Assembly: GCF_018780585.1 (NCBI RefSeq)
Contig: NZ_JADMJL010000036.1
Coordinates: 1 to 58,643 of the forward strand
Source of the DNA: Methyloversatilis discipulorum
GTDB lineage: Bacteria > Pseudomonadota > Gammaproteobacteria > Burkholderiales > Rhodocyclaceae
Length of the DNA: 58,643 nucleotides
Reading direction: 5' to 3'
A program made the position numbers and the translations under genes. The notes under the pieces were generated by a model. The model ran no database searches, was not told the origin of the DNA, and was given only the letters and a program-made list of their open reading frames with translations. Shown here piece by piece: positions 28,730-33,174 of this stretch. The stretch's first letter is position 1; each line of letters begins with the position of its first letter.

Positions 28730-29431
28730 TCAATCGGCGGCTGCGGCGGCTTCCATCGCGGCCAGTCCGGCGTGGCGGACGTCGGTACCCTTCACCATGA
28801 ACACCACGTACTGCGCCATGTTCTTCGAGTGGTCGCCGATGCGCTCGATCGCCTTGGCGATGAACAGCAGGTCGAGGCCGCAGGAGATGGTGCGCGGGTC
28901 TTCCATCATGAAGGTGATGAGCTGACGCATGATGGACTTGAATTCGGCATCCACCTCCTTGTCCTGACGCACCACCTCGGTGGCGCTGGCGAGATCCATG
29001 CGCGCCAGCGCGTCCAGCGTGCGGCGCAGCATGTCCACTGCCATCGAGGCCGCGTGCCGCAGTTCGACGCGCGGCACGAAGATGGCGTCGGACTCGAGGA
29101 TGTGACGTCCCATCTTGGCGATCTTCTTCGCCTCGTCGCCGATGCGCTCCAGATCGGTGATGGTCTTCACCACCGACATGATGACGCGCAGGTCGCTGGC
29201 GGCCGGCTGGCGCTTGGCAATCAGGTGATTGCAGGCGTCGTCCAACTCGATCTCCATCGCATTGACCTTCTTGTCGTTGGCGATCACTTCTTCGAGCAAC
29301 GGCAGGTTGCGCTCGATCACGCCGCGCATCGCGTGTTCGATTTGCTGTTCGATCAGGCCGCCCATCTGCAGCAGGCCGGTGCGGACGCTTTCGAGTTCGG
29401 CATCGTAGCGTTTGGAAATGTGTTCGCTCAT
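28730..29431 (-). CDS. phoU: Phosphate-signalling protein PhoU
   Basis: A 233-residue all-helical protein with two PhoU repeats, each with the metal-binding pattern seen in ITDLERIGDEAKKIAKM and FIAKAIERIGDHSKNMAQYVVF. It links the Pst phosphate transporter to the PhoR kinase and restrains the Pho response. The start at 29431 (MSEHISKRYDAEL) matches the family; a longer in-frame extension does not. It follows rpiA by 52 bases and is not next to pst or phoBR genes, which are absent from the window. Confidence 0.95.
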   Translation of the reverse strand: MSEHISKRYDAELESVRTGLLQMGGLIEQQIEHAMRGVIERNLPLLEEVIANDKKVNAMEIELDDACNHLIAKRQPAASDLRVIMSVVKTITDLERIGDEAKKIAKMGRHILESDAIFVPRVELRHAASMAVDMLRRTLDALARMDLASATEVVRQDKEVDAEFKSIMRQLITFMMEDPRTISCGLDLLFIAKAIERIGDHSKNMAQYVVFMVKGTDVRHAGLAAMEAAAAAD

Positions 29432-29483
29432 GACGTCAGATCCTGAAAGTATTGAGTGTTCGACCCCGTGCGGGCGTCGATGT

Positions 29484-30155
29484 TCAGGCGTGCAGCGTGC
29501 GCACGCCGTCGGCTGACGACACCAGCGCAAGGTCGGCGCGTCGGCGGGCGAACAGCCCGTTGGTCACGGTACCGGTCAGATGGTCGAGTTCGCTCTCGAA
29601 CAGTGCCGGTTCGGCGATCTTCAGCCCTGCAACGTCCAGGATGAGATTTCCGTTGTCGGTGACGAAGCCTTCACGCAGCTTCGGTACGCCGCCGAGCTTG
29701 GCCAGTTCGCGTGCGACCAGGCCGAGTGCCATCGGAACGACCTCGATCGGCAGCGGGAAGCGCCCCAGCATGTCGACGCACTTCGAACTGTCGGCGATGC
29801 AGACGAAACAGTCGGACGCGGCGGCGACGATCTTCTCCCGCGTCAGCGCACCGCCACCGCCCTTGATCAGGTTGAGGCCGGGGTCGATCTCGTCGGCACC
29901 GTCGACATAGACCGGTATGCGGCGGCCGGAGGCGATCGCCTCGTCCAGCGTCAGCACCTTGATGCCGTGCCCGCGCAGGCGGGCGGCGGACGCTTCCGAA
30001 CTGGCGATCGCGCCAGCGATCTCGATCTTCTCGGCGGCCAGCAGGTCGATGAAGTGGTTGGCGGTGGAGCCGGTACCCACACCCAGCAGGTCGCCCTGTA
30101 TGACGTGGGGCAGGGCAGCGCGGGCTACGGCAATCTTCAGTTCATCGGCGGTCAT
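29484..30155 (-). CDS. rpiA: Ribose-5-phosphate isomerase A
   Basis: A 223-residue isomerase that interconverts ribose 5-phosphate and ribulose 5-phosphate, feeding phosphoribulokinase and the pentose-phosphate pathway. The substrate-binding loop [16 protein letters not shown], the [28 protein letters not shown] block and the closing [14 protein letters not shown] are diagnostic. The start at 30155 gives [15 protein letters not shown]. It is 19 bases downstream of the nucleotidyltransferase of the HPr-rel-A-like cassette and may share its transcript. Confidence 0.96.
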
Positions 30156-30174: not shown

Positions 30175-31269
30175 TCAGGCGGCCTTGCCATCGTCGTGGA
30201 TGAAGGCCTTGTATGCAAGATGCGGAATCAGCAGGTGCAAGGGCATTCTAAGCCAGTGGCTGCGCGCGTAGAGGATCTGCCGGCGCGCGCGACGCCACGG
30301 AGAATCGCTGCTCGGGTGCAGCGGATACATCGACGCGTCGATCAAGTGGTCGGTCAGCGCACCGGTCGGACGGGCCGCCAGTCGCTTGCGGCCTTCGCTC
30401 GCCACCGCCTCGGGAATGTCGGTGCCGAAGATCCGCTGCGCGAAGCGCAGTGTCAGCAGTACCGGATACTCGAGTTGCTGCGCGCGTGCGCGCGGCAGAA
30501 GTGCTGTCCAGAATCCGGGCTCCGGCGAGAACTCGTCCAGCAGGCAGTGCAGGTCGTAGAGATCGCGCAAGCCCTTCTGCAACTCGCCGAAGAACAGGTG
30601 GCAGGCCGAGTGCATCACCATGTCGACCGGTGACAGCACGTGGAACACATCCGGGCAGTGCGGCAAGGCGACCGGACGCGCGTCGGCGATCAGCTGTGCC
30701 GCGTCGGGAATGTGGCCGGAGGTCGGCGGCACGATGGTGTGGTGCAGGTCGATCACGGTGCCACGCGTCATGTGCTCGATCGGCGGCAGCTCGTGCATCC
30801 ACTCCCGGTAATAGCGCTGGTCGTAGGAATTCAGGTGGGTCGGGCGCCAGCCACAGCGAAACAAGGCGCCTTCGGCACGCTCGATGACGTCCTTTGCCAC
30901 CATCAGGTCGATGTCGTTGAACAGCCGCGAACGTCCTGCGCGCAGGCCGGCTGCGGCATAGGCGGCGCCCTTGAGCAGCAGCACCGGCTGGCCGAGCGAC
31001 TGCAGCGCGTCGCCGATCACCGCCAGTTCATTCAGCAGCGAATCGCGGTGCAGCGCGGCGATGCGCAGCGCTGCGTCGAGATGGAAACGGACCTGCGGCG
31101 GCACGCGCTCGATGCGCCCGGTGTCGTGCAGCCGCTCGGCCAGTTGACCGAGCAGATCGCTGGTGCGCGCCTGCCCGATCAGGGCTTCCCAGTCGCGCGC
31201 GTCGAAGCGTTCGGTGAATTCGGGTGTGGCGAGTGTTCTCGCCAGGTGGGTGTCCGTCTGTCGGCTCAT
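30175..31269 (-). CDS. Nucleotidyltransferase family protein of the HPr-rel-A-like cassette
   Basis: A 364-residue protein of the uncharacterised nucleotidyltransferase family PF14907. The glycine loop and metal motif are visible as [40 protein letters not shown], with the DxD pair in NDIDLMV. Such enzymes transfer nucleotides or modified groups, and members occur in some lasso-peptide tailoring clusters and next to HprK-like kinases. The start at 31269 ([12 protein letters not shown]) is 40 bases after the kinase gene; a longer in-frame extension would run into it. Substrate unknown. The likely target is whatever the PqqD-like protein presents, by inference from the cassette. Confidence 0.75.
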
Positions 31270-31309
31270 GTTCCGGTCGGGGCGCAGCGGCCGGCGGTGC
31301 CGGCCCGCC

Positions 31310-32236
31310 TCAGGCGCTACGCGTGCAGATCGATTCGAGTGCCGGCACGATCTGGTCGAGCGAGCCGTAACGCGCAGTGTAACCGTCGCAGCCATCGACC
31401 AGACGGTCCATCGCCTCGAAGCCGGTGACGCCGAGCCGCGGATAGTTGAAGGAATTGCTCACCAGCTGCATGAAGGTGTGCGCCTTGCCGTTTGCTTCGA
31501 TGTCCAGTGCATGACCGGCCGCGAACTGCGGAAACAGGATCCAGCGCGGTTGCACCGGTTTCAGCGCCGCCTCGACGCTGGCGCGCGGCGCGCGCATGTG
31601 CGCCACCGTGCCCTTGGCGGTGTCGTGGGCGATCGGGCCGATCACCGGCTGGCCCGGGAGCTGGCGGACGATGTCTATCGACTGGTTCTTCAGACTGACC
31701 GGTCGCGGCAGCGGCATCAGCAGACCGTCGTCGAGGCCGACCATCGCCAGTTCGTCCGACAGCAGGCGCCAGCCGCGCAACGCCAGTGCGGCGCACAGCG
31801 TGCTCTTGCCCGAGCCGGGCGGCGCGGCCATGACGAGGCCCAGCCCGTCGCGCTCGAGCACGGCGGCGTGGATGATGAGGTAGTGCTGGGCGTGGTTGGT
31901 GAATACCCAGTTCAGGCCCCATTCGAGCATGGCGACCGCCTGATCGCCGGGCAGCGGCTTGAACGGCTGCATGCCCTCGAAGCGGAAGATGGCCTGCGGA
32001 CGCACATAGCGACGCAGTCCGCTGCTGCGCACTTCGACCGGGTAATCACAGAAATCGTCGTCCGACGCGACCGGGTAGTCAGCGTAAAGTGCGTGCAGAC
32101 CTTCCGCGACCGAATCGAAGTTGGAACGGATGCCGGCGACGAAGCGGCCGAGCTGCAGCCGCAGACCGTTGCGGCTGCGCAGCCGCTGACGCAGTTCGGC
32201 GGGGGGCAATGCAGAGAGATGGAGGCGTGGCGACAC
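31310..32236 (-). CDS. HprK-related kinase (HPr-rel-A type)
   Basis: A 308-residue kinase distantly related to the HPr(Ser) kinase/phosphorylase. An N-terminal domain (SALPPAELRQRLRSRNGLRLQLGRFVAGIRS) leads to a P-loop AAPPGSGKSTLCAALALRGWRLLSDEL, with Walker A at about 138-146 and the following SDEL acidic motif. His123 in IIHAAVLERDG precedes the loop, as in HprK-like folds. No phosphotransferase-system gene is nearby, so the substrate is unlikely to be HPr. A GTG start at 32236 is chosen because it avoids overlap with the PqqD-like gene, which ends 7 bases upstream, and matches the family start as I recall it. Longer in-frame ATGs read through the other gene. Confidence 0.8.
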   Translation of the reverse strand: MSPRLHLSALPPAELRQRLRSRNGLRLQLGRFVAGIRSNFDSVAEGLHALYADYPVASDDDFCDYPVEVRSSGLRRYVRPQAIFRFEGMQPFKPLPGDQAVAMLEWGLNWVFTNHAQHYLIIHAAVLERDGLGLVMAAPPGSGKSTLCAALALRGWRLLSDELAMVGLDDGLLMPLPRPVSLKNQSIDIVRQLPGQPVIGPIAHDTAKGTVAHMRAPRASVEAALKPVQPRWILFPQFAAGHALDIEANGKAHTFMQLVSNSFNYPRLGVTGFEAMDRLVDGCDGYTARYGSLDQIVPALESICTRSA

Positions 32237-32243
32237 GGGCCGT

Positions 32244-32504
32244 TCAGCCTGCGGCCCGCACGATGCCGTGCCGTGCAAGGGCATCCAGCAGTTCGGAAAG
32301 CGGCAGGTCGTCATCAGACGGCAGCACTTCGGCCAGCGCATCCGTGTCGGCCGGACCGGCCTTCAGCCGTGCGACGATGGCGCCGGCAGTGGGCGCGAGC
32401 ATCGTCGTGGTCGTGGTTCTCGCGTTGTACAGCACTGACCCGTCTGGCCAGTTCAGAACCGACATGGCCTCCGGCGTCACCAGAGACCACTGCACTGCGG
32501 TCAC
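32244..32504 (-). CDS. PqqD-like peptide chaperone of the HPr-rel-A-like cassette
   Basis: An 86-residue protein that looks like a PqqD-type RiPP recognition element: VQWSLVTPEAMSVLNWPDGSVLYNARTTTTTMLAPTAGAIVARL, then a helical C-terminal half LSELLDALARHGIV. PqqD-type domains hold a peptide leader and deliver it to a modifying enzyme. It starts with GTG 7 bases after the Cys-rich gene stops and ends 7 bases before the kinase gene, so the three are tightly coupled. An internal ATG (32465) is possible but would delete the first conserved strand. No pqq biosynthesis genes are nearby, so this is not the PQQ-pathway PqqD. Confidence 0.75.
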   Translation of the reverse strand: MTAVQWSLVTPEAMSVLNWPDGSVLYNARTTTTTMLAPTAGAIVARLKAGPADTDALAEVLPSDDDLPLSELLDALARHGIVRAAG

Positions 32505-32511
32505 GTCGCGA

Positions 32512-33174
32512 TCAGCCGTTCTGGCCTTCGCACCAGACGCCCGAGGTATAGACATCGACCTTGGAAATGAAGGACTCCAGGGCACTGACGCCGCCGCTGA
32601 ATGCGGTCTGGAAGGCCGAGATCACCGCCTCAGGCGACTGCATGCCGATGACCGGGTAGCGGTTGCCGTAGTACTGCGCGTTGAGTAGCGCCGCCACGGC
32701 GTGGAAGGCGCAGGTCTTCATGTTGTTAAGCTTGTTGGTCGGGCACCAGCCGCCGCTCATCGTCTTGTCGTAGATCACGCCGGTCTTGTCGATCGCCTCG
32801 CGCAGCGTTTCGTTCTTCGACGGCTTGAAGAAGGGCACGCCGAACACGCTGTTGAAGTACTGGCCTTGCGCGTAGATGAAGGGGATGAGATCCGGGTTCT
32901 CCCAGATTTTCTTGCCATTCGTGTTGCCCCAGAAGCCGGGGCTGCAGCCGCAGGGGCGCGGCGTGCCGTCACGCGACAGGTTGCCGGAAGCGATTTCCGA
33001 GCCGGTGCAGGTGCCCCACGTGCCGGTGCCGAAAGCGGAACGGCTCGCCACCGACAGCAGCACGCCGGCGCCCGCTGCACCGCCGCGGGTCAGACGCCGC
33101 CGCGCGGCATCCACTTGCTCGGTCTGCGGGGTGGGGACTGCGTCGGTCTGGCTGTTCTTGTCGAGCTCGTTCAT
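32512..33174 (-). CDS. Cys-rich exported protein with a Tat-like leader, probable client of the HPr-rel-A-like cassette
   Basis: A 220-residue protein I cannot place in a characterised family. A polar N-terminus leads to a twin-arginine-like RRRLTRGGAAGAGVLLSVASRSAFG (arginines 25-27, hydrophobic core 31-44), suggesting export in folded form. The mature part has six cysteines (56, 75, 77, 144, 155 and 215) and the motif CGCSPGFWGNTNGKKIW (75-91). That recalls the C-x-PGYWKN motif of other secreted proteins. It ends VDVYTSGVWCEGQNG. It is the first gene of the cassette, transcribed with the PqqD-like, kinase and nucleotidyltransferase genes. The role as substrate is inferred from position. An AT-rich promoter lies upstream. 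Confidence 0.65.
   Translation of the reverse strand: MNELDKNSQTDAVPTPQTEQVDAARRRLTRGGAAGAGVLLSVASRSAFGTGTWGTCTGSEIASGNLSRDGTPRPCGCSPGFWGNTNGKKIWENPDLIPFIYAQGQYFNSVFGVPFFKPSKNETLREAIDKTGVIYDKTMSGGWCPTNKLNNMKTCAFHAVAALLNAQYYGNRYPVIGMQSPEAVISAFQTAFSGGVSALESFISKVDVYTSGVWCEGQNG

Follow-up and report, generated by a model that had tools for sequence, protein, structure and literature searches.

A four-gene cassette of the HPr-rel-A system

The DNA analyzed here, which we call the window, is a stretch of 58,643 nucleotides from Methyloversatilis discipulorum (contig NZ_JADMJL010000036.1), and our subject is a cassette of four genes on its minus strand. The first gene encodes a protein that we refer to as the client (32512–33174; 220 amino acids (aa), ATG start). 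It is followed by genes for a PqqD-like protein, predicted to be a RiPP recognition element (RRE; RiPP, ribosomally synthesized and post-translationally modified peptide) (32244–32504; 86 aa, GTG start), an HprK-related kinase A (31310–32236; 308 aa, GTG start), and a PF14907 nucleotidyltransferase (30175–31269; 364 aa, ATG start). An initial annotation of this DNA had described four genes separated by gaps of 7, 7, and 40 bases, and we re-derived the same genes and gaps on the minus strand; both GTG starts are our choice, and the gap figures depend on the chosen starts.

The kinase scored 395.8 bits against the NCBIfam model TIGR04352 (HprK_rel_A; cut-off 200), the PqqD-like protein scored 43 bits against TIGR04353 (“HPr-rel-A system PqqD family peptide chaperone”; cut-off 35), and the nucleotidyltransferase scored 179.8 bits against the Pfam model PF14907 (cut-off 31.2). 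Because all three scores exceed the cut-offs, the cassette is, as judged from sequence, a member of the catalogued HPr-rel-A system, the name that the initial annotation had given. An adjacent PF14907 nucleotidyltransferase, which we take to be a defining trait of that system, is present here. No publication naming the HPr-rel-A system was found in the literature searched, and as far as we searched the trio is catalogued without a known function. What is new is the client family and its linkage to the trio, the trio itself being already catalogued: unlike its three neighbors, the window client matched no NCBIfam or Pfam model.

No gene of the phosphotransferase system (PTS) lies within the cassette, in line with the earlier statement that none is nearby. 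The matches of this genome to HPr (one) and to canonical HprK sit on other contigs (C28 and C65). TatC is encoded in the genome. The closest species-named locus is that of Methyloversatilis universalis, with a kinase 76% identical to that of the window.

The client is conserved together with the trio

Could the first gene be a chance reading frame? In a first set of 110 loci fetched by their kinase (80 named contigs and 30 family genomes), a profile built up from the window client detected a homologue in 109. A wider survey covered 224 kinase loci, in which some genomes are counted twice (e.g., L002/L033 and L003/L099) and L113, L114, and L227 were left out. The client lay upstream of the kinase in 213 of these loci, with one further match off position, and the frame is therefore not a chance one. 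The PqqD-like profile matched in 200 of the loci, and the nucleotidyltransferase was found in 204 (single-sequence search) or 205 (profile). At each of the 14 loci that have a client and no PqqD-profile match, a frame of 73 to 144 codons lies between the client and the kinase; by eye, only some of these frames are recognizably PqqD-like.

Eleven loci lack an upstream client, and for nine of them the profile matches elsewhere in the same genome or close by. In one genome (G198), the client and the PqqD-like gene lie 7.6 kb from the kinase with a minor-pilin operon between them; in another (G335), the client adjoins the kinase on the opposite strand; in a third (G371), whose kinase gene is broken up between contigs, a client match sits next to the N-terminal piece. 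The other six (G279, G267, G220, G323, G466, and G412) have matches elsewhere in the genome, restricted to the leader region in G466 and weak in G412 (E 1e-4). No client was found at L068 and L153. At L239 (3145–11185) and L199, a type IV minor pilin operon (pilY1- and pilE-like genes, identified by eye) splits the client–PqqD pair from the kinase–nucleotidyltransferase pair in one genome.

The nucleotidyltransferase behaved similarly. It was missing by profile at 19 of the 224 loci; in 13 of these a client is present and the DNA extends 1.4 kb or more downstream. Each of the 13 genomes nevertheless carries a PF14907 gene over the cut-off, within ~3 kb beyond the kinase in six and on another contig in seven, compared with only 2 of 14 control genomes. 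Thus, the parts of the cassette stay together even when they are unlinked.

Among 199 genomes of the family, 82 have the kinase over its cut-off, 83 match the client profile, and 81 have both (Fisher p 2e-52, without a correction for relatedness). Of the 89 client matches, 81 have a kinase no more than 2 kb away. In the one kinase-bearing genome that the client profile did not match (G018), a client-like open reading frame is in place. The client idea of the initial annotation was to fail if the trio had no consistent upstream protein; such a protein does exist, both in the locus survey and in 81 of the 82 kinase-bearing family genomes. Among 398 genomes of the phylum, 61 have the kinase, 72 have a client match, and 56 have both. 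Two of the 16 client-only genomes gave stronger matches (G539, E 5e-16; G481, E 3e-9), which cover only the core (model positions 83–180) of larger secreted-looking proteins, the one in G481 having a signal that itself contains an arginine pair (RR); matches in the remaining 14 were weak (E 2e-6 to 1e-3). The client core domain, with its GCTPGYW-like motif, stands at the C-terminus of larger secreted-looking proteins at L253 (1312–3591) and L254 (1990–2886), in genomes without an over-cut-off kinase, and the core may be an unnamed extracellular module.

A set of 80 client relatives was likewise foreign to the catalogues: no family matched more than 1 of the 80 at E 0.01 (best Pfam match TrAA12, E 1e-4; NCBIfam, 1 of 80). 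On the evidence of its sequences, the client is a genuine, uncatalogued protein family tied to the trio.

Anatomy of the client

Filtering at 80% identity gave 185 non-redundant clients, and dropping four with no usable RR or start left 181 for the feature counts below, 80 of which form alignment A1. The median length is 204 aa. The window client has six cysteines and a leader like those of the twin-arginine translocation (Tat) pathway with the motif RRRL. The twin-arginine leader spans residues 25–49 (RRRLTRGGAAGAGVLLSVASRSAFG; 33028–33102, minus strand), and R25 and R26 are invariant in alignments A1, A2, and A4. RR is present in 183 of the 185 clients and the first cysteine in 175, and RRx[FLIVM] was found in 178 of 181. 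Nearly all clients have a hydrophobic leader with the twin-arginine motif, a feature of Tat substrates. An arginine or lysine occurs in the c-region of 136 of 181 leaders. The Pfam model TAT_signal matched 4 of 80 members, the best at a weak E of 0.049.

Residues 56–67 (32974–33009, minus strand) hold C56 and a linker of the form S59-x3-S63-x3-S67, a candidate modification site that is invariant in 25 clients. The full invariant set of that alignment (A2) is M1, R25, R26, C56, S59, S63, S67, G76, P79, W82, and F107. S-x3-S-x3-S follows the hydrophobic region in 99 of 181 clients, compared with 6% of shuffled segments, and is confined to part of the family, including the subgroup of the window.

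The remainder, residues 68–215 (32530–32973, minus strand), is a predicted helical core that starts with a C-GC-SPGFW stretch. In the AlphaFold2 model, residues 1 to ~65 are of low confidence, while the core has pLDDT block means of mostly 80–96, with a weaker part at residues 131–150 (block mean 60). Since the low-pLDDT linker precedes the helical core, the invariant serines probably lie in a flexible stretch between the leader and the fold. Searched against solved structures with Foldseek (PDB), the core gave only matches with E above 1. The number of cysteines is even in 132 of 181 clients, which, together with the near-constant first cysteine, fits an oxidizing compartment. The sphingomonad-like and other compact clients retain RR and cysteine, and by eye several groups also share a C-terminal C-[WFY]-x-S.

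We compared leader and core conservation with those of MsrP, which we take to be an ordinary enzyme exported by Tat. In MsrP (29 loci from family genomes), the median identity was 0.43 in the leader and 0.73 in the core, and the leader exceeded the core in 0 of 404 pairs. In the clients, the leader identity was 0.36 and the core identity 0.24, with the leader exceeding the core in 536 of 600 pairs. In the window-like group (20 of the 25 named loci, the remainder having been removed as redundant), the values were 0.43 and 0.30, and the linker identity was 0.40 versus 0.30 in MsrP. The comparison left out 3 of 181 clients (core under 40 aa), 1 of 30 MsrP loci, and 2 of 406 MsrP pairs (core identity at least 0.9). 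The gap between leader and core in the clients therefore arises because the core evolves fast, not because of the leader. The client leader does not appear to be unusually conserved; rather, the core appears unusually variable, as in RiPP precursors.

The PqqD-like protein as a predicted RRE

The 86-residue protein had been described as PqqD/RRE-like, and both profile and predicted fold support that description. PqqD-like sequences were aligned (A5, 81 sequences), and profile matches were obtained to TfuB1 (E 4e-6) and TbiB1 (E 0.0013). The structure model has a pLDDT of 94.8, and its six best Foldseek matches are lasso-peptide RREs solved with a leader peptide. The protein is thus predicted to be an RRE whose nearest relatives are those of lasso peptides.

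Kinase and nucleotidyltransferase

The kinase active-site segment (31754–31873, minus strand) comprises H122, the P-loop G140–T145, and D160–E161, conserved at 0.98–1.0 in 195 kinases. It aligns with HprK (1jb1, E 0.18), with the histidine, the P-loop, and the acidic residues in register. Unlike HprK itself, the window kinase scores far below the cut-off of the HPr kinase/phosphorylase model TIGR00679 (15 bits against 240), and the genome has a separate canonical match. In the nucleotidyltransferase, the sole PF14907 match in the genome, the carboxylates D118-x-D120 and D173 (30751–30918, minus strand) are conserved at 1.0 in 183 sequences; they are presumably catalytic, as in the superfamily. 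A Methylobacterium plasmid gene (L114, 3413–4564) annotated as a PqqD family chaperone gives a partial-length match to the kinase and has a nucleotidyltransferase gene near it; judging by its sequence, it is possibly a PqqD–kinase fusion.

Relation to known tailoring systems

The initial annotation had drawn a parallel with lasso-peptide tailoring, and the parallel is apt. According to reviews (PMC9266682, PMC8498205), PadeK (paeninodin), ThcoK, and SyanK phosphorylate a C-terminal serine of lasso precursors, some of them repeatedly. For pseudomycoidin, PsmK phosphorylates the precursor, and the action of PsmN, annotated as a nucleotidyltransferase, leads to one or two hexoses on the phosphate. 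These pathways, as described there, share with the cassette an RRE and an HprK-like kinase, acting in their case on a precursor serine, and in pseudomycoidin there is also an annotated nucleotidyltransferase. They differ in that the proposed substrate here is a whole exported protein and in that the window kinase has Asp-Glu where HprK has Asp-Asp. The four genes gave no family match to a lasso macrolactam cyclase or B2 leader peptidase, the flanks of the window having been read by eye only.

Another counterpart in gene content is the linear polyphosphorylated peptide (LPP) system of Bacillota (LppA/K/B/S/D/N), reported in 2026 (PMC13381572). According to the part of that report used here, it combines a discrete RRE, an HprK-like kinase, and an NTP transferase with no macrolactam cyclase, as does the cassette; LppK puts several phosphates on the core serine S3, next to the leader cleavage site, and deletion of LppN caused no detectable change. 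Unlike the LPP precursors, the window client carries a leader of the Tat type and a core of ~150 residues with a predicted fold, and it lacks a [YW]xxPx motif; none of the four genes encodes an SpI-like peptidase or an MsbA-like transporter. Since defining features of the lasso and LPP pathways were tested for and are absent, we file the cassette as a variant of RRE-guided tailoring rather than as a member of either pathway.

The same precedents bear on the order of reactions. The initial annotation had proposed phosphorylation and then nucleotidylation; the second step now looks less well supported, as PsmN, the one precedent with a product, gives a hexose on the phosphate, and the LppN deletion had no detectable effect.

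A proposed modification system for an exported protein

We propose that the four genes form a protein-modification system in which an entire exported protein undergoes tailoring of the RiPP kind, a reading to which we give about even weight for and against. The client would be made with its Tat leader, and the PqqD-like RRE would bind the leader region and deliver the client to the kinase. The kinase would then phosphorylate hydroxyls in the flexible post-leader segment (S59, S63, and/or S67), possibly repeatedly, and the PF14907 enzyme would add a group to the phosphate, most likely a hexose. Serine phosphorylation followed by hexose addition is suggested by analogy with PadeK, ThcoK, SyanK, PsmK/PsmN, and LppK, all of which act on precursor serines in the source portions cited above. 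Finally, the folded, modified client would be exported by Tat, its leader removed, and its cysteines paired. Tat exports folded proteins. It fits the model because such export would let modification in the cytoplasm finish first.

This proposal builds on the conserved gene set, the client family, the catalytic residues, the separate HprK and HPr, and the tight co-occurrence, to which the RRE fold adds a structural prediction. From these we infer every chemical step, the modified residues, Tat export, and the role of the mature protein. A more specific version is possible, and we hold it only tentatively: a phosphoglycosylation system in which the RRE directs the kinase, together with an enzyme that transfers a sugar or nucleotide, to a whole folded protein by way of its Tat leader, yielding serine-phosphate-sugar in the periplasm or on the cell surface, with one sphingomonad-like lineage tied to the phosphate regulon. 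If the proposal is correct, RRE-guided tailoring reaches beyond small peptide natural products and also decorates whole exported proteins across many Pseudomonadota. The HPr-rel-A system, catalogued but with no known function, would gain a substrate family, what HprK-related kinases and PF14907 enzymes do could be tested directly, and there would be a way to make secreted proteins that bear a phosphate or sugar tag.

Two observations limit the proposal. The main gap concerns docking: the RRE-binding motif of lasso and LPP leaders, [YW]xxPx[LVIFA], occurs in 2 of 181 clients, compared with 1.4 expected from shuffles. At this chance level the motif leaves the docking of RRE and client unexplained, and the RRE must therefore recognize the leader elsewhere, unless the model is wrong at that point. 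Secondly, the lineages without the serine linker speak against one universal modification site.

Might the trio instead modify another target, such as a separate small peptide or HPr/NPr, with the client as a co-expressed periplasmic partner or effector? We regard this as unlikely. Modification of the client is so far proposed by analogy, HPr is encoded in the genome, and two secreted proteins contain the client core domain in genomes that have no kinase over the cut-off, all of which would suit a different target. On the other hand, across 80 loci the client is, besides the trio, the only cluster that adjoins the kinase in different genera; the other fixed neighbors reach at most 26 of these loci, in what looks like local synteny shared among them. 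The substrate of an RRE has to be made by the ribosome, the client is the only conserved candidate seen, and a canonical HprK is already present in the genome.

We assign a similarly low probability to a second alternative, in which the PqqD-like protein serves chiefly as a proofreading chaperone for Tat export that, like TorD/DmsD, masks the leader until the client has matured, and in which the kinase and nucleotidyltransferase target the folded core or a site near the cysteines instead of the serine linker. RR and the post-leader cysteine are the only near-universal client residues, the serine linker is limited to part of the family, and the C-terminal C-[WFY]-x-S seen by eye in compact clients of several groups would offer another site. 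The notion of a chaperone dedicated to one Tat substrate is common to both cases. TorD has an all-helical fold, whereas the PqqD-like protein is predicted to have the RRE fold, and its best structural relatives are RREs solved with linear leader peptides. In addition, the precedent HprK-like kinases, as far as the cited portions describe them, act on serine hydroxyls.

A toxin–antitoxin or anti-phage unit, with an AbiEii-like nucleotidyltransferase and the kinase as its regulator, is highly improbable: the nucleotidyltransferase matches PF08843 (AbiEii) weakly and under the cut-off (15.4 bits against 22.5), the single PADLOC match among the four proteins is a 12-bit one to the kinase P-loop region, and such a unit has no place for a conserved exported client or an RRE.

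Genomic neighborhood and a possible link to phosphate

In the window, rpiA begins 19 bases past the nucleotidyltransferase stop and is followed by phoU on the same strand (28730–30155). The same rpiA–phoU order was seen at L031–L033, L179, and L206, these being the related loci that extend far enough.

A different phosphate-related setting was found in the family f45, which we take to be sphingomonads from their likeness to a Sphingomonas plasmid. Eight of its 11 over-cut-off cassettes are flanked by divergent phoR-, pstS-, pstC-, phoU-, or phoB-like genes within 3.5 kb, and the one cassette of family f78 likewise lies beside divergent pho/pst-like genes within 3.5 kb. In 20-kb stretches, pho/pst-like genes were present at five of seven such loci. 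The sphingomonad-like cassettes (L162–L169, L171, L256–L260, and L112) are transcribed away from the phosphate-regulon genes. The PhoR- and PstS-like proteins encoded on the Sphingomonas plasmid fall short of the NCBIfam cut-offs, and a search for a Pho box upstream of the clients found none. The divergent arrangement suggests that the cassette is linked to phosphate in sphingomonad-like genomes. On a Vibrio alfacsensis plasmid (L111), the neighbors of the cassette are a regulator and transport genes for 2-aminoethylphosphonate.

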